Below, in pieces: positions 6,634-55,231 of a stretch of DNA of 63,547 nt. Each line of letters starts with the position of its first letter. Within the stretch, counting starts at the first letter, position 1. Both the position numbers and the translations under genes were made by a program. The notes under the pieces are model-generated. The model saw only the letters and a list, made by a program, of their open reading frames with translations. It searched no databases and was not told the origin of the DNA. Source of the stretch: Myxococcota bacterium (GTDB lineage: Bacteria > Myxococcota_A > Polyangia > HGW-17); contig JAHJMN010000052.1 in assembly GCA_018821305.1 (NCBI GenBank), forward strand, positions 1 to 63,547. The letters are read 5' to 3'.

Positions 6634-8787
6634 TTGAGGTGTATTGGTTGTAATAACGTCGTCCCCGATGAGGCCAGATTCTGCCCCAGATGTGGTCTGA
6701 GTCTACGGCCATCAAATCAGGATCCATTTATCGGGAAAAAACTGGATGACAGATATCTGGTTTTAGAAGCCATTGGTGAGGGTGGTTCGGGTAAAGTCTA
6801 TCTGGCTCGTCATATCCAATTGGGAAAACGTATTGCTGTTAAAATCCTTCATAATGAACTTGCTCAGAATGAAAAAGCTCTAAAAAAATTCAGAAAAGAA
6901 GCCCTCAGTGTGGGGGAACTTGAAAATGAGCATATTATTAAAATTTTTGACTTTGGTCAAACAGATGGTACTCCCTACTTCGCCATGGAGCTCCTGACGG
7001 GAGATACTCTGAGTACTGCTCTGACCCGCAAATCATTTTTCTCCTTCAAAGACACATACGATATTATAACCCAGATCTGTGAAGGGCTTGCGGAAACCCA
7101 CGCTCTGGGCTTTGTTCACCGTGATCTACGTCCTCGAAATATTATGCTGACGACTCATGCTGGAAAAGATAATTTTGTTAAAATTCTTGATTTCGGTTTA
7201 GCCAAGATGGTTGTAGGCGGAGATCCCGGAAAGTCAGGAATTGGCTTCAGTGTAGGAGATCCAACCTACACAGCTCCGGAGCAAATGAAGTCCGGAACCA
7301 TCGACAGTAGAGCAGATTTGTATTCTCTTGGAATAATAGCATACCATATGCTCTCAGGACATGCTCCGTATTCCGGGAACAATGTTTTTGAAATCATGGG
7401 GAAACATCTCGACGCGCCCTACCCGCCCATCGAAGGTACAGTTCAACCACTACCATCTGGAATTGATTATATTTTAGCCAAATCATTATCAAAAAACCCT
7501 GAAAACAGATTTAAAACTGCTCTACAATTTAAAGAAGCACTTCAGAGTCTGTTGAAAATGCACTTAATCCCTGTTAAAGATTCAAAAAATGCATTTCAAA
7601 AGGGCATTTCCTATATCGATTTGCAGAGTCCATTTCCTCTTGCTGACAGCGCGAAAATGGTTCGCCTTGCGGGAGGCGGTGTAATTCGCTCTGAAAGTCC
7701 CCCGGTAGCACCGCCTGCGCAAAGGGCATCATCATCACAAAATTCCGCTGTCCCTGCTCCGGATGTAAAAAAATTCCAGCATAACCGCAAAATGGATGTT
7801 CTAGTTGGAATCAATGCTGCGGATTTGAAGCAGCAACTTGAAGCAGGTGGTGATAATAAAAGCCCGACGGAAAAAATTCCGACGGAAAAAAAAAATGAAC
7901 AAACCGACCCCTCCTCGTCCCTCATAGCAGCTGCTCCGTCCGAAAGCTTCATCAGGCATCAGGATGATTTGATAATAGAAAGGCAAAAAAAATCCAATCA
8001 GGAACGCAAGTTCTGGCTTGTCATCATAATTGGAGGAGTCGCACTGGCACTGTTGCTTTATTTCCTTGTATCCAGTTTTACAAAAGATGACAAATTGCCG
8101 GATTTTAAAAAGAATACTCCCGGAAAAACTGAAACAACTGATAAAAAGCCACCGGATATGCTTCCTCAAATGGTCGCTGATATGACTGCCACTTCCGGGA
8201 ACGTTTTAATCACGGCAATGGATGTTCAAAGTGCAACCCCCATCGCTGTAAATACCCAGCCTGTTATGACCGAGCCTGTTATGACCGAGCCCGTTATGAC
8301 TGAGCCCGTTATGACCGAGCCTGTTATGACTGAGCCCGTTATGACCGAGCCCGTTATGACTGAGCCTGTGAAAATTATGGTTCCGGATAAAATCGATATC
8401 CCGGTGATTATGAAGCCCGTGGATCCAGCGCCAGTTAAGGACCCGGCCGCTCTCCTGAAAAAGGCACAAACTGAATATAACAACGGTAGTTTCAGTGCTG
8501 CATACAATACTTATAAATCGCTGCTTGCAAAAACACCTTCCAGTGCAACGGCGCTGAGTGGAATGGCCAGTGTCTGTTTTGAACTTGGGAAAACCCAGGA
8601 AGCTGAAAAGTATTTAGGAAAACTTGTTAATGTAGCTTCAACGGCAAACAATTGGTATCGACTTGGTTCCGCACGTCAGAAGCTTGGAAAAACACAGCCT
8701 GCTATCGAAGCTTATAAAAAAGCTCTTTCTAAAAACCCCAATTTTGAACCTGCCAAGCGTGCTCTGGCAAAACTAACTGGCGGTTGA
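6634..8787 (+). CDS. Membrane Ser/Thr protein kinase with zinc ribbon, TEPVM repeats and TPR domain
   Basis: 717 residues from a TTG start with AAGGTG 7 nt upstream. In order: zinc ribbon (C3, C6, C17, C20); Hanks-type kinase at about 40-315 with GEGGSGKVYLA (48-58), K70, HRDLRPRN (162-169), DFG (187-189) and APE; a low-complexity linker; one transmembrane helix near residues 465-485; a periplasmic PVMTE repeat (seven identical units); and TPR units to the end. The catalytic loop has Arg instead of the usual Lys in HRDLKP, with the catalytic Asp164 intact. It is probably an active inner-membrane sensor kinase whose TPR part lies outside the cytoplasm. Two zinc-ribbon proteins with repeated Ser-rich motifs at 24-27 kb are possible, unproven substrates. 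Confidence 0.9.
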   Translation: MRCIGCNNVVPDEARFCPRCGLSLRPSNQDPFIGKKLDDRYLVLEAIGEGGSGKVYLARHIQLGKRIAVKILHNELAQNEKALKKFRKEALSVGELENEHIIKIFDFGQTDGTPYFAMELLTGDTLSTALTRKSFFSFKDTYDIITQICEGLAETHALGFVHRDLRPRNIMLTTHAGKDNFVKILDFGLAKMVVGGDPGKSGIGFSVGDPTYTAPEQMKSGTIDSRADLYSLGIIAYHMLSGHAPYSGNNVFEIMGKHLDAPYPPIEGTVQPLPSGIDYILAKSLSKNPENRFKTALQFKEALQSLLKMHLIPVKDSKNAFQKGISYIDLQSPFPLADSAKMVRLAGGGVIRSESPPVAPPAQRASSSQNSAVPAPDVKKFQHNRKMDVLVGINAADLKQQLEAGGDNKSPTEKIPTEKKNEQTDPSSSLIAAAPSESFIRHQDDLIIERQKKSNQERKFWLVIIIGGVALALLLYFLVSSFTKDDKLPDFKKNTPGKTETTDKKPPDMLPQMVADMTATSGNVLITAMDVQSATPIAVNTQPVMTEPVMTEPVMTEPVMTEPVMTEPVMTEPVMTEPVKIMVPDKIDIPVIMKPVDPAPVKDPAALLKKAQTEYNNGSFSAAYNTYKSLLAKTPSSATALSGMASVCFELGKTQEAEKYLGKLVNVASTANNWYRLGSARQKLGKTQPAIEAYKKALSKNPNFEPAKRALAKLTGG
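8260..8364 (+). repeat. 15-bp tandem repeat, 7 units, coding for PVMTE
   Basis: Seven units of the form CCTGTTATGACCGAG differ only at third codon positions (CCT/CCC, ACC/ACT). They lie in frame in the extracytoplasmic linker of the Ser/Thr kinase, between its membrane helix and TPR region, and are prone to length change by slippage. Confidence 0.9.
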
Positions 8788-23572: not shown

Positions 23573-23723
23573 AGTAATTATCCTGTTTGAAACTGTTCAG
23601 TACAAGTTTTACCAATAAGTGGTCTATCTGAGTCCAAACTGATACGTTAAGAATCGGCAACATTTAAAGCAAGTTTAACTGAAACCAGTATGTTATTCAA
23701 TCAGAACGCTTTCGAACTAATCA

Positions 23724-23874
23724 GTTAATGTCCTGTAATACGATATTTTCAAATTTTTCACCGATTTTTCGCTCAGGACAGTAACCGCAAGGTGTTGAAT
23801 TTATTGCTAGTGGCCGGATAGAATTTTTAATAAAATCCTTCGCAAAGCGAATTACAGGACACGAACTAATCAGT
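23724..23874. repeat. A element, copy flanked by 13-bp direct repeats
   Basis: From GTTAATGTCCTG to CAGGACACGAACTAAT, with the blocks GCTCAGGACAGTAACCGCAAGG and GGCCGGATAGAATTT. CGAACTAATCAGT occurs at both sides (about 23713-23725 and 23862-23874). This could be a target duplication or the leftover end of a second A copy. Confidence 0.7.
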
Positions 23875-23982: not shown

Positions 23983-26310
23983 ATGGAAAATTGCCCACAT
24001 TGTGGAAAAAGTAGATTTGGCGACGATAATACATGCTGGTTCTGCGGAAAAGATGTAAATGCTCCCGTTTCTACAAACCTTGAAGAACATAAGGAAACCG
24101 GTGGATTGCATTTTGAAACCCTTGTTCCTCCGGAGCAAAATTACTCCAAGAAGATGACTTACGGTCTCAGCGACGAAAGCGCGTCCCGTGACCGAGCAGC
24201 GGGGATACAGAACTACGGCCTCAGCGACGAAAGCGCATCTCGTGATCGAGCCGCAGGTGCTCAGAACTACGGCCTCAGCGACGAAAGCGCGTCCCGTGAT
24301 CGAGCAGCGGGGATACAGAACTACGGTCTCAGCGACGAAAGCGCGTCCCGCGACCGGGCCGCAGGTGTTCAAAACTACGGACTTAGCGACGAAAGCGCGT
24401 CCCGTGACCGGGCGGCAGGTGTTCAAAACTACGGTCTCAGTGACGAAAGTGATTCCCGGGACAAATCCTCCAGAGTTCATGCTTATGGTTTGAGGGAGGA
24501 GATTGATGGAGCCAGTGCTCTTGAATCACCACCACCTCCTGTAAAACCTAAAGGAGAACAGCCAAAGCCCAGACCCCGAATGCCTGCACCTCCCGTAACG
24601 ACAACTAAAAAGGGTCCTGGGGCGGCAATTGCGGGTTCGATTGGAATATTTGTAATAGCTTCAATATTTATAGCTGTTTTGCAGTCCAGATCAAAACCTC
24701 GTTCGCGAAATGTTGTAAAAAAAGAGGAAATCAGGAAAAAACTCCAGGAAAACCTCGAAAAGAGGAAAACAAGAGCTATTACTGATAAAAAAGCTCTCGT
24801 GGAAAAAAATAACTCAAACGATAAGAGACTTGAAGAACATGTGCAAAATTGCATAAAAAAATCTTATCGCCTGTCCTGCAGACGGGCTCTTTTAAAACTT
24901 AAAACCTTGGATAGAACAGAAGCCACCGCAAAGAAAATTCTGAATGTAGCTCGAGCAGGATGTAAAAAAGGTTATGTAGAAAGTTGTATGGACCTTTGTG
25001 ATGAAGCACGTAAACGGGATAAGTTTACGGCAGAAGATAAAGATTATTACTGTAGTTACGGCTGTGAAGTAGCCGGTAATGCAGGAATGTGCGAAAAGCT
25101 GGCTTTTGCAAAACTTCGGGGTGAAGGTCATCTGGTGGATGAATCCGCGGCGAAAAGGCATGTGACAGGATTATGCAGTAATTTGTCCGCAGGGTGCTGG
25201 AATGAAGCTGAAATTGCTGAGATTATAGTCTGGAATCGGGTTGATGAAAAGTCACCAAGAAGTGCTTCCGAAAAGGACATCTGGATTGGGCCTGCTATTT
25301 TACGAAATCAGAGTAAAGGTTTTAAAGATCTTTTAAAAACCCCCAAATCCAGGGATTCTCATTTGAAGGGAATCAAAATAAAAAGTACATATTTCCGTGA
25401 ACTTATATCAAAGAAAAGTATTTCAAGGCAAAAAGATCCGGAAAAACCCGCGAGATATGAACAGATTCATTTTTATTTACACAACGGCTCATGTACTGAT
25501 GCTGTTGTGAATTTGACTTTGGAGTGGGTATTAAATGGTAAAATGCCTGCTAAAACACTCAAAAACCCGAAGGTTTGTTACCCCGGACCCTCAGGGGAAG
25601 TATGCCAGAATTACACAATTGCCGAAGGTCAAAACCCCGTTTCAAGTATTTCTGTGAAATTACCCGCAAACATCTCTAGTCATGTTTTTATTGAGATGGA
25701 TTCAAATTTTATCGGCCCGGATGCGGCTTTATATAAAAAGATAAAATTTATTGGTAAGAATATCCTGTGGTCAAAAGGCAAAACCTGTCCAAAGCCTGAT
25801 TTAAAGGCACTTTTAGCTTTAAAAGGCCCATACAAATACATCGGGGATATCTACAAAAAAGGATGCGAACTGCAAAAATCTAAAAAGCCTGATTACATGC
25901 TTTGCAAATACATGGAAAAAATTGGAAGGCACAAAAAAGAAGACCTTCGAACCATGTGTAATAATCGGAATCTTCATCCATCTGGTTATATAGAAGGGGC
26001 CTGTCGGCGTCTTAAAGCCCGATTTAAAGAGGAAATCAAAGAAGAGAAAACAGCGGAAATTTCAGAGCCAGCGTTTGATGTAGCCCCATCGGGGGGAGCA
26101 GGAATAGCAATATCCTCAGGTACTTCAATAAAAATAGGTTCTTCCTCGTCCATCACAATCAAGGGCGGTTCAAAGAACCTGCGCATAAACGGCAAGACCG
26201 GCAAAGAAGCAGAAAAAGAACTCATGAAGCTCATGAAAAAACAGGGGATAAATGTGAACAATCTCCACAAAAATCAGATCATAATTGACGGGAATATTAA
26301 AAAACAGTAA
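23983..26310 (+). CDS. Zinc-ribbon membrane protein with 18-residue GLSDESASRDR repeats
   Basis: 775 residues. A zinc ribbon (C4, C7, C18, C21) is followed by six tandem 18-residue repeats beginning at Tyr60 (core YGLSDESASRDRAAG; the sixth diverged, a seventh partial). Then come a Pro-rich stretch, one membrane helix (about 213-235), a basic/coiled segment, a Cys-paired helical region similar to Sel1/Hcp-like repeats (ARAGCKKGYVESCMDLC, CSYGCEVAGNAGMCEKLAF), and a long unassigned C-terminal part. The repeats would be cytoplasmic and offer regularly spaced Ser residues, possible kinase targets. The zinc ribbon and repeat are shared with the gene at 26679. The TAA stop lies in A-element sequence, so the natural C-terminus may have been altered. 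Confidence 0.75.
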   Translation: MENCPHCGKSRFGDDNTCWFCGKDVNAPVSTNLEEHKETGGLHFETLVPPEQNYSKKMTYGLSDESASRDRAAGIQNYGLSDESASRDRAAGAQNYGLSDESASRDRAAGIQNYGLSDESASRDRAAGVQNYGLSDESASRDRAAGVQNYGLSDESDSRDKSSRVHAYGLREEIDGASALESPPPPVKPKGEQPKPRPRMPAPPVTTTKKGPGAAIAGSIGIFVIASIFIAVLQSRSKPRSRNVVKKEEIRKKLQENLEKRKTRAITDKKALVEKNNSNDKRLEEHVQNCIKKSYRLSCRRALLKLKTLDRTEATAKKILNVARAGCKKGYVESCMDLCDEARKRDKFTAEDKDYYCSYGCEVAGNAGMCEKLAFAKLRGEGHLVDESAAKRHVTGLCSNLSAGCWNEAEIAEIIVWNRVDEKSPRSASEKDIWIGPAILRNQSKGFKDLLKTPKSRDSHLKGIKIKSTYFRELISKKSISRQKDPEKPARYEQIHFYLHNGSCTDAVVNLTLEWVLNGKMPAKTLKNPKVCYPGPSGEVCQNYTIAEGQNPVSSISVKLPANISSHVFIEMDSNFIGPDAALYKKIKFIGKNILWSKGKTCPKPDLKALLALKGPYKYIGDIYKKGCELQKSKKPDYMLCKYMEKIGRHKKEDLRTMCNNRNLHPSGYIEGACRRLKARFKEEIKEEKTAEISEPAFDVAPSGGAGIAISSGTSIKIGSSSSITIKGGSKNLRINGKTGKEAEKELMKLMKKQGINVNNLHKNQIIIDGNIKKQ
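24160..24483 (+). repeat. 54-bp tandem repeat, 6 units, in frame
   Basis: Six units of 54 bp encode the 18-residue repeat of the zinc-ribbon protein. Units 1-5 are nearly identical at the DNA level (GGCCTCAGCGACGAAAGCGC core), so they arose by recent expansion or are kept uniform by recombination. Unit 6 is diverged. Confidence 0.92.
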
Positions 26311-26456
26311 CCGTAAGGTGTTGAATTTATTGTAGTGGCCTGTTTCTCACTGTTTTCTACGAAAACAGGGGGCCAACTTTGACGATTTCCTGCGGAAATA
26401 CGTCGTAGTTAGGATTTTTAATAAAATTCTTCGTGAATTGAATTTCAGGACACGAT
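26302..26456. repeat. A element with an unusual middle, overlapping the upstream stop codon
   Basis: It starts inside the A motif CAGTAACCGTAAGGTGTTGAA and ends TTTCAGGACACGAT. The middle has an insertion (GTTTTCTACGAAAACAGGGGG and following bases) not seen in other copies. The left half of the element is missing; CDS 23983-26310 ends at its TAA. It joins B copy 4 directly. Confidence 0.65.
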
Positions 26457-26640
26457 CTAGACCGATTGCGGAGTAATAAGGATCGAAACGGGAAAAGTGA
26501 ATGTTTTCATCCTGCTATTTGTAATTATGCATTGATTTTGAATGTTTAACCGCTGATCCTGAACCTGTTTTCCTGACTTCCTGAGTCCCTGTTAAAAAAT
26601 TTCAGATAAACAGGAAATCAGTAGCAGTAACTGATGTCTT
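26457..26640. repeat. B element, copy 4, right end missing
   Basis: It starts CTAGACCGATTGCGGAG and continues through the TGCATTGATTTTGAATG block and CAGGAAATCAGTAGCAG. It stops before the right inverted repeat, about 40 nt before the next start codon. Confidence 0.7.
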
Positions 26641-26678
26641 AGAATATTCTGAGAATTCTGAGCTAAAAGGAGCCTTAA

Positions 26679-27365
26679 ATGCTGGAAAACTGCCCTCATT
26701 GTGGTCAAAGTCGATTTGGAAATGAAAAAATTTGCTGGTTATGTGGAAAAGATGTTGATGAACCTGTTTTGGGGGTTAAGCAGGATGATAAAACAAACGT
26801 CATTTATCAGTCCACAGCAGGGAATTACGGTCTCAGTGACGAAAGTGCGTCCCGGGATCGACCTTCACAACCACCGGAATATGGACTCAGTGATGAGAGC
26901 GCTGCTCGTGACCGACCCTCTGAATTAAAAACGTACGGATTCAGTGATGAGAGTGCATCTCGAGACAGGCCTGCCCAGACTCAGAAATATGGACTAAGTG
27001 ATGAGAGCGCCTCCCGGGATAGACCGACCCACTCACAGAATTTTGGTTTGAGCGATGAAATAAATTCCCGGACTCAGGATTCAAAACTGCCGGGTTATAG
27101 CTCAGATTCGAAACAACCTGACAGCAAAAGTAAAATTATCAAAGTATTAAGTAAAAAGCCGTGTATGGTAGAAGAATCACCCTATCAGCCTGGAGAACGT
27201 GTGGTAAGTGGTCAAGTGATCTTTTTGATAGAAGTTAACAAAATGCAGGACGAAATATGTTCACCATGTGACGGGGTAATTGAAAGCATTCTGGTTCAGG
27301 AAGGGCAATCCGTAGAAGCGGGTGAGATTCTTGCCACAATAATCGGCAAAAAAAAGAAAAAATAA
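26679..27365 (+). CDS. Zinc-ribbon/GLSDES-repeat protein with biotinyl/lipoyl-like domain
   Basis: 228 residues, AAAAGGAG upstream. The zinc ribbon CPHCG...CWLCG and five 18-residue repeats (Tyr50, 68, 86, 104, Phe122) match those of the gene at 23983. In place of the membrane part, residues 160-223 form a biotinyl/lipoyl-type domain: YQPGERVVSGQVIFLIEVNK, M189, then SPCDGVIESILVQEGQSVEA, GEILATI. The carrier Lys is K188, in EVNKM where biotin carriers have EAMKM. The domain may be biotinylated or lipoylated, or may be a structural hammerhead. No carboxylase genes are nearby. The pairing of these three modules is not one I know. Confidence 0.8.
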   Translation: MLENCPHCGQSRFGNEKICWLCGKDVDEPVLGVKQDDKTNVIYQSTAGNYGLSDESASRDRPSQPPEYGLSDESAARDRPSELKTYGFSDESASRDRPAQTQKYGLSDESASRDRPTHSQNFGLSDEINSRTQDSKLPGYSSDSKQPDSKSKIIKVLSKKPCMVEESPYQPGERVVSGQVIFLIEVNKMQDEICSPCDGVIESILVQEGQSVEAGEILATIIGKKKKK

Positions 27366-27418
27366 AACCAGTGAAGCAATAAAAGCAATTTGTATATAAA
27401 CAATAATTTAATGAAATT

Positions 27419-27618
27419 CTTCAGGTGAAAGCATGTGATTCTCCTGTTACTGCTACTGCTTACCAGGATTACTCTGATTTTTTTAACAGGTAATCAGGAA
27501 GTCAGGAAAACAGAGTCAGGATCAGCGGTTAACCATTCAATATCAATTAATAATTAAAAAATGTATTTTTTAATCCAATTTCTCAATTTCGATCTTATTA
27601 CTCCGAAAGCGGTTTAGA
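27419..27618. repeat. B element, copy 5 (reverse orientation)
   Basis: It ends CTCCGAAAGCGGTTTAGAC at 27601-27619 and contains the GTTAACCATTCAATATCAATTA block. The left terminal repeat is lost. Its right end shares TTTAGAC with the start of C element copy 2. Confidence 0.7.
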
Positions 27619-27934
27619 CGCAATGCTGATCGGATAGTGAACTTCCGAGTGAATTAGTTAATAAATACAATATTGTATAATAATTACAGGCAGACAGGAA
27701 TTCAGGAAAACAGGGGTCAGGAGCAGGGCGTTTACTTTGAAGGTGTGCGTTTTTGTGGCATAAAGATCGATTTCAATTCAGTATTTGCATACACACCTTC
27801 AGGAACAAGACCCTGATTATCCTGATTCTGATACTGTTTCTGACTTTCTGAATGTTCTTGCTTTTATTAAATTATGTTGTTTTTATTAACAATATCAACT
27901 AATACACCTTAACCTAACAGCATTAGGTTTAGAC
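27613..27934. repeat. C element, copy 2 (MITE-like)
   Basis: It is very similar along its length to 8811-9127. The left end is TTAGACGCAATGCTGATCGG and the right end is the inverse of TAAACCTAATGCTGTTAGG. Both copies lie directly against a B element. Confidence 0.75.
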
Positions 27935-39560: not shown

Positions 39561-39783
39561 AAAATCGCTTATATTGCGTCTTTGAAACACCTGCAGGGAT
39601 AATTTGTTTTAAATATTCTGCAATTGCCTGAAATTCAGTAATTTCAGGCTTTTTACTATTTATCTGATCATTTTCTCTTGACTTGGAAATAATCATGAGT
39701 ATATATCAGTTCTATCAACTGAACATTTTCGGGTTCCGTGAAAAGTGAATACAACTTTTCAATCGTCTGTATGTCATTTTTTT

Positions 39784-40257
39784 GTTCATAGTCCGGAAAT
39801 ATTTTATTTCCGGTGTGGTAATCCACCGATTCAGTCCAGAGGATCTTCTGATTTCTTCGGGCTAAGTATTTTTTGATACGTTTGTTGACAGTTTTTGATA
39901 CGTTTTGCTGGCTGTATCTTTGATACGTTCTGTGATTGTATTTGATTTGTTGATAGTAGTATTTTGATACGTGTTTTGTAGGGTCTTGTATGCCCTCTGG
40001 ATACTGAATCGGTCTTTTTTGTTCATAGTCCGGAAATATTTTATTTCCGGTGTGGTAATCCACCGATTCAGTCCAGAGGATCTTCTGATTTCTTCGGGCT
40101 AAGTATTTTTTGATACGTTTGTTGACGGTTTTTGATACGTTTTGCTGGCTGTATCTTTGATACGTTCTGTGATTGTATTTGATTTGTTGATAGTAGTATT
40201 TTGATACGTGTTTTGTAGGGTCTTGTATGCCCTCTGGATACTGAATCGGTCTTTTTG
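39784..40257. repeat. Two 237-bp direct repeats with iteron-like TTTGATACGT motifs and a hairpin
   Basis: Unit 1 is 39784-40020, unit 2 is 40021-40257; I see a single internal difference plus the last base. Each holds four copies of TTTGATACGT (39872, 39894, 39919, 39963 and +237) and a hairpin with arms CCGGAAATA/TATTTCCGG (39793-39813, 40030-40050). The minus strand is open across both units (79 codons each, ending at 39668 with a TYQRYSQQNVSK-rich product of up to 229 residues). The only start codons for it lie in sequence antisense to the gene at 40275, so I treat coding as unproven. Confidence 0.85.
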
Positions 40258-54829: not shown

Positions 54830-55231
54830 ATGCTGAAAATATTTTTCCCCGTCCTTTTAACCCTCACTTTAGTTTCCTGTGGCAAAGAAAAGAAGGCCGA
54901 TAATCAGGACAAAAAGACAGTAAAATCAGAAGTCAAATCGGATTGCAAATGCGGTAAAGATTGCAAATGTAATAAAGACGGCAAGGGCTGCACCTGCGGT
55001 AAAGACTGCAAATGCGCTAAAGACGGCAAAGCTTGTACCTGCGGTAAAGACTGCAAATGCAACAAAGACGGCAAGGGCTGCACCTGCGGTAAAGATTGCA
55101 AATGTAATAAAGACGGCTCAAGTTGTAATTGCGCTGGAGAAGTAAAAGGTTGTGGCGGAGATTCTCCGTGTAAAAAAGATACACCCTGCAGCGGCGCAGC
55201 TGATAAACCCTGCGCAAAATCCGGAAAATAG
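54830..55231 (+). CDS. Lipid-anchored metallothionein-like Cys-rich lipoprotein
   Basis: 133 residues. Signal peptide with lipobox LVSC (Cys17), a short Lys/Asp-rich spacer, then about four 15-residue repeats (GKDCKCNKDGKGCTC) from C39, each with four Cys in C-x-C-x3-C-x-C pattern. A further Cys-rich tail (SCNCAGEVKGCGGDSPCKKD) brings the total to more than twenty Cys. Cys-x-Cys density with Lys and no aromatics is the composition of metallothioneins, here exported and lipid-anchored. Likely binds soft metals (Cu, Zn, Cd) outside the cytoplasm. GGAG precedes the ATG. The TAG stop is the end of a B element. Confidence 0.75.
   Translation: MLKIFFPVLLTLTLVSCGKEKKADNQDKKTVKSEVKSDCKCGKDCKCNKDGKGCTCGKDCKCAKDGKACTCGKDCKCNKDGKGCTCGKDCKCNKDGSSCNCAGEVKGCGGDSPCKKDTPCSGAADKPCAKSGK
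54944..55123 (+). repeat. 45-bp tandem repeat, 4 units, in frame
   Basis: Units encode CxCGKDCxCxKDGKx. DNA differences are few and mainly synonymous (GATTGCAAATG vs GACTGCAAATG), so the array is recent or homogenised. Confidence 0.85.

Follow-up and report, generated by a model that had tools for sequence, protein, structure and literature searches.

Two neighbouring zinc-ribbon proteins of a Myxococcota bacterium share a conserved 12-residue repeat core, a candidate docking motif

The gene pair and its surroundings

The locus belongs to the genome of a single Myxococcota bacterium (97.7% complete); the stretch of DNA analysed as a whole, here called the window, spans 63,547 nucleotides. Two neighbouring genes stand in it on the same strand, the forward one, as do all their features given below, and each has a Shine-Dalgarno-like GGAG a few bases 5' of its start. 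Gene 1 (23983-26310) encodes 775 residues: a zinc ribbon, six repeats, a Pro-rich linker, one membrane helix and a Cys-rich C-terminal half. Gene 2 (26679-27365) encodes 228 residues comprising a zinc ribbon, five repeats and a biotinyl-like domain, with no membrane helix. A preliminary description of this DNA had reported two adjacent ribbon-repeat reading frames, and their coordinates, strand, ribbons and repeat period were all borne out, as was the arrangement it gave for gene 1, in which ribbon and repeats are followed by a (predicted) membrane helix and a large Cys-rich part.

Both proteins open with the same CPHCG..CW.CG ribbon. The ribbon of gene 1 (23983-24054) carries Cys4, Cys7, Cys18 and Cys21, and that of gene 2 (26682-26756), with Cys5, Cys8, Cys19 and Cys22, is homologous to it; the two sequences, MENCPHCGKSRFGDDNTCWFCGKDV and LENCPHCGQSRFGNEKICWLCGKDV, are 78% identical at the DNA level across 26 codons. 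Homology between the genes starts about 14 bases upstream of the gene 1 start codon.

The repeat unit is a 12-residue core, YGLSDESASRDR (Y-G-L-S-D-E-S-A-S-R-D-R), followed by a 6-residue spacer, so that both arrays have a period of 54 bp. Six 18-residue copies of the form YGLSDESASRDR-AAG(I/V/A)QN stand in gene 1 (24160-24483), where they also show a 108 bp higher-order pattern and have no structure in a low-confidence model; the five in gene 2 (26826-27095) keep the core and vary in the spacer. The end copies of the two arrays are degenerate, the sixth of gene 1 as YGLSDESDSRDK and the fifth of gene 2 as FGLSDEINSRTQ.

The window is rich in other repeated DNA. Dense dispersed intergenic repeats of about 50-310 bp, 78-90% identical, occur at 23719-23870, 26310-26630, 27400-27920 and at least 10 other places in the window, both sides of gene 2 among them. 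Elsewhere, 39778-40256 holds two tandem copies of a 237 bp unit, 99% identical, a recent duplication, and a short reading frame at 54950-55117 holds a Cys- and Lys-rich tandem repeat with a 45 bp unit that could bind metal.

Selection on the repeat core and its distribution

Codon-by-codon comparison of repeat copies sets the core apart from the spacer. Copies of gene 1 compared with one another give a core pN/pS of 0, those of gene 2 one of 0.04, and comparison across the two genes one of 0.018; for the spacer the corresponding values are 0.10, 0.50 and 0.63. The between-gene test used four disjoint pairs of a gene 1 and a gene 2 copy, each copy used once, and in these the core differs by 33 synonymous and 2 nonsynonymous changes against 15.5 and 28.5 in the spacer (Fisher p = 3.4e-8). 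Neutral simulation gave a mean of 25.9 nonsynonymous core changes and a minimum of 17.5, where 2 were observed. Among the nine full copies, core codons vary at 3 of 12 first positions, at none of the 12 second positions and at all 12 third positions. As judged from these codon changes, the 12-residue core is under strong purifying selection in both genes and the spacer is free of such constraint. Selection has thus kept the peptide, as predicted for a binding or modification site.

This pattern bears directly on the idea of a neutral linker VNTR that expanded recently and came to be shared by both genes through recombination. The occurrence of the repeats in one species only, the gene 1 orthologues that are devoid of them, the dispersed intergenic repeats flanking both genes and the higher-order pattern in gene 1 all fit such a history, but the synonymous sites of the core are almost saturated between the two genes, and its amino acids hardly differ. 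The arrays must therefore be old relative to any homogenisation. A fresh VNTR or gene conversion is excluded, since either would also have erased synonymous differences. For the core, then, neutral VNTR behaviour or recent gene conversion is ruled out by the balance of synonymous and nonsynonymous changes; for copy number and spacers a VNTR reading may hold, and as an account of the repeats in general it seems to us highly improbable. Two arrays drifting separately in one genome provide a clean test of lineage-restricted repeats in bacterial linkers, a kind readily written off as neutral noise, and the outcome is a defined 12-residue peptide that can be used in pull-downs.

The repeat appears confined to this gene pair. 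In a search within the genome, a four-copy query found the gene 2 repeats at E = 1.6e-26, well past any chance level, and a repeat profile recovered 11 copies only, all in genes 1 and 2, the next matches having E values of 1.7 and 6.3. No repeat array was found in 77 relatives, among them one from its genus and six from its family, nor any 18-residue array in other ribbon proteins of relatives at the loci examined. Single matches to a DNA pattern in two genomes (G008 and G066) proved to be short frames, each holding a single FGLSDE-like stretch without any array, and were set aside. Pattern scans of genome_contigs, viral_contigs and plasmids, collections from which near genomes may be absent, were seeded on a few stretches of 8 residues and within that scope returned no relative of the ribbon-repeat part. 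As to a fusion of ribbon and biotinyl domain, the readable biotinyl matches in relatives (frames of the forward strand only) were ordinary EAMKM, EAMKL or ESMKM carriers, and gene 2 has been seen in one genome only. The preliminary description had held that a motif limited to one organism and lacking sequence constraint would count against it; limitation to one organism stands in everything searched, and lack of constraint does not, since the core is selected.

Domains carried by the two proteins

Gene 1 belongs to a small family. Two full-length orthologues, both from metagenome-assembled genomes and 26-29% identical to it, lie on JAHJLU010000284 (Myxococcota, saline) and QKIM01000647 (Deltaproteobacteria SZUA-580). 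Both share its ribbon and follow it with a second one at the place of the repeats, then with a Pro-rich linker, a membrane helix and a Cys-rich part, and ribbon cysteines C4, C7, C18 and C21 are invariant in gene 1 and the two orthologues (L115 and L116). Neither of these two sequences has the repeats, which must therefore be dispensable for the ancestral role. A class-level search of 290 genomes added one further relative (G233), in which the ribbon is absent and the protein begins with a lipoprotein-like leader resembling a lipobox, SSLMALTGC; 13 cysteines are invariant across the four homologues. The preliminary description knew of no described family joining these modules, which stands for gene 2 and falls for gene 1, as relatives without the repeats exist. 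An extension of about 85 residues at the C-terminus of gene 1 (26038-26307), Gly/Ser-rich and strand-like, is absent from its two orthologues.

The single predicted helix (24625-24681; residues 215-233, Kyte-Doolittle 2.61) is followed by 540 residues with 18 cysteines, of which the Cys-rich region proper (24790-26037) comprises Sel1-like helical pairs at about 270-405, a beta-sandwich at about 430-598 and a second helical Cys part. Gene 1 has no Pfam family match, and the Sel1 family (PF08238) in particular is matched neither by gene 1 nor by the three relatives scanned; a weak match (E 0.001) links it to a 967-residue protein with four Sel1 stretches. An AlphaFold model of gene 1 (three rows) has a mean pLDDT of 42 and is thus of low confidence; in it residues 270-405 form helix pairs and 413-598 a beta-sandwich. 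The best structural matches to the helix pairs of the low-confidence model are COA7 (Z 8.8, rmsd 6.9 over 128), c5321 (Z 8.7, rmsd 8.8 over 131) and HcpB (Z 6.6, rmsd 6.6 over 128), with Z values that can be generic by the tool's own warning. The top PDB match by Foldseek, AlkC, had a TM score below 0.2 and was judged meaningless. The cysteine pattern makes a Sel1-like, Cys-rich C-terminal half plausible. The model of gene 2 alone (mean pLDDT 41) is too poor to speak to mechanism, and because both models are poor they lend little weight either to disorder of the repeats or to the Sel1-like fold.

The lipoprotein-like relative and the conserved cysteines suggest that the C-terminal half of gene 1 is extracytoplasmic, which would leave ribbon and repeats inside. 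On the other hand, the residues directly after the helix are very basic, and the positive-inside rule would place these inside; with the two arguments opposed, a cytoplasmic location of ribbon and repeats, which the preliminary description had given for the repeats, is what we infer for gene 1.

The preliminary description also gave gene 2 a biotinyl- or lipoyl-like C-terminal domain with Lys188 in EVNKM. This domain (27159-27341) is confirmed by a match of residues 161-221 to the Pfam family Biotin_lipoyl (PF00364) at 52.5 bits, where the cut-off is 22.1. In alignments Lys188 falls at the hairpin turn, on the carrier lysine of OadA and of BCCPs with solved structures. Three domains in the genome exceed the PF00364 cut-off, namely those of OadA, gene 2 and a fused carboxylase; within the genome OadA is the nearest relative (55% identity over residues 170-225). 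To judge from these resemblances, gene 2 is most likely the product of a fusion in which a copied OadA biotinyl domain came to follow the 5' part of a gene resembling gene 1; that the dispersed intergenic repeats helped to join the parts is speculation.

Whether the domain still carries a cofactor is a separate matter. Gene 2 has neither the (A/S)MKM context of BCCPs nor their N-terminal P-x-P-x-x-G strand, its first strand reading KKPCMVEESPY where PSPLQGTIFKL is expected. Biotinylation of yeast pyruvate carboxylase 1 is reported to suffer when the residue preceding the acceptor lysine is replaced, and a BCCP in which MKM is replaced by DKA becomes partially lipoylated (PMC2753649). Since an asparagine precedes Lys188, these findings lead us to expect weak or no biotin on gene 2, and the change from EAMKM to EVNKM probably weakens biotinylation. 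Lipoylation was also considered: two LplA/LipB-type genes are present in the genome, but the lysine motif is wrong, NKM at 187-189 in place of the lipoyl context DK(A/V), and lipoylation of Lys188 is unlikely. The carrier role proposed earlier thus keeps its lysine and a genome equipped with a biotin ligase and the LplA/LipB-type genes, and loses ground through the asparagine and the altered first strand.

A candidate docking motif, its alternatives and its relatives

We propose that the repeat core is a short linear docking motif, present several times along a flexible linker, through which the membrane protein of gene 1 and the soluble protein of gene 2 would recruit a common cytoplasmic partner or compete for it. 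The case is strongest in that selection has kept one 12-residue peptide in two proteins whose C-terminal halves differ, and docking by a common motif is the most economical mechanism for it. Binding would be multivalent, with gene 1 presenting the motif at the membrane and gene 2 in solution; across the membrane, gene 1 would couple the putative partner to its outer part, Cys-rich and Sel1-like, and the biotinyl domain of gene 2 would serve mainly as a folded module for binding or assembly, biotin attachment being weakened or lost. Docking sites had been suggested in the preliminary description, and strong purifying selection on the core strengthens that suggestion. No repeat-binding domain was found for the core peptide. 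We infer that the repeats are disordered and bind a partner; for the reading as a whole, in which a multi-copy core binds one partner for both proteins, we see the chances as evenly balanced. More tentative, and on balance doubtful, is the full picture in which YGLSDESASRDR, a docking peptide not described before, is displayed in multiple copies on a sensor-like, Cys-rich membrane protein and on a soluble chimera of ribbon and biotinyl domain and lets the two compete for or bridge on one cytoplasmic partner, the biotinyl domain having been repurposed from metabolism to signalling or scaffolding. If it is true, a carboxylase-type carrier domain has been reused in a non-metabolic adaptor.

Alternatively, the selected residues could be viewed as multisite phosphorylation targets (Ser4, Ser7, Ser9 or Tyr1 of each copy) of a Hanks-type kinase, perhaps one with its own zinc ribbon such as that encoded at 6634-8787. 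That gene specifies a Ser/Thr kinase that begins with a zinc ribbon and has a membrane helix, then about seven TEPVM tandem repeats, and TPRs at the C-terminus. A kinase that itself has an N-terminal ribbon is thus encoded in the same window, and Ser4 is invariant in all 11 repeat copies, Ser7 and Ser9 in 10 of 11; yet conservation is roughly as tight at Y1-G2-L3 and R10-D11-R12 as at the serines, so that a longer recognition element than a simple acceptor site is needed. Moreover, the kinase gene is not adjacent but some 15 kb off, across unrelated genes, and the earlier proposal of phosphorylation sites has gained no specific support; we hold it to be unlikely. The constancy of the 18-residue period, which shows no indels in nine full copies despite spacer drift, and the presence of the same core in both proteins might instead reflect folding, with the units stacked as a small solenoid or self-associating array through which the proteins polymerise or bind each other. 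Prolines in the gene 2 spacers speak against this, as does the lack of structure there in the models, though these are too poor to weigh much; history alone could account for the constant six-residue spacer length, and a folded array strikes us as very unlikely.

A further alternative concerns gene 2 alone and would make it a working biotin carrier, in which the biotin ligase loads a mobile biotinyl domain that ribbon and repeats direct to a carboxylase or decarboxylase in the membrane. The strength of the Pfam match, the retention of Lys188 and of the glutamate at -3, a biotin ligase gene directly upstream of oadA, and best solved relatives that are the biotin carriers of transcarboxylase and methylmalonyl-CoA decarboxylase all agree with such a role. 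Asparagine nevertheless replaces methionine before the lysine, P-x-P-x-x-G is gone, and the two other biotin carriers of the genome, OadA and the fused carboxylase, both retain EAMKM; a working carrier is accordingly quite unlikely in our estimate.

Set beside known systems, the motif and the combination of modules in gene 2 appear to be without a match in the collections searched, although each ingredient is of a known kind, be it ribbon-linker-membrane protein, biotinyl domain or motif array. Relative to OadA and BCCPs (PF00364), gene 2 keeps the hammerhead motifs around the lysine and the second half of the domain; it differs in EVNKM, in its diverged first strand, in having no catalytic domain and in the ribbon and repeats placed in front. 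With the Cys-rich Sel1-like proteins of the Helicobacter Hcp family and COA7, gene 1 shares conserved cysteines and, in the low-confidence model, helix pairs at residues 270-405, and differs from them in its attached beta-sandwich and membrane anchor and in having no Pfam Sel1 match.

In layout, gene 1 is similar to a protein of the same phylum, GltJ/AgmX of the Myxococcus xanthus gliding machinery, which has an N-terminal zinc ribbon, a disordered cytoplasmic part, one membrane helix and a periplasmic C-terminal region. The two are alike in the layout of ribbon, flexible linker, one membrane helix and outer domain. GltJ is membrane-anchored, with a periplasm-exposed region and a TonB-like C-terminus (PMC8262864). 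The end of gene 1 is instead Cys-rich, with a probable Sel1-like part and a beta-sandwich, and a Pfam scan of gene 1 with E up to 1 detected no GYF or TonB-like domain. The same genome encodes another protein with a ribbon, a long disordered-looking linker and a membrane helix, without the repeats (L143; G000:C73, 844-2406, minus strand), and the ribbon-linker-membrane-helix layout seems common in this class. Multivalent arrays of short linear motifs on disordered linkers are known from scaffold and adaptor proteins; the present arrays would join them with a conserved core of about 12 residues, variable spacers and a probably disordered linker, carried by two genes of one species.
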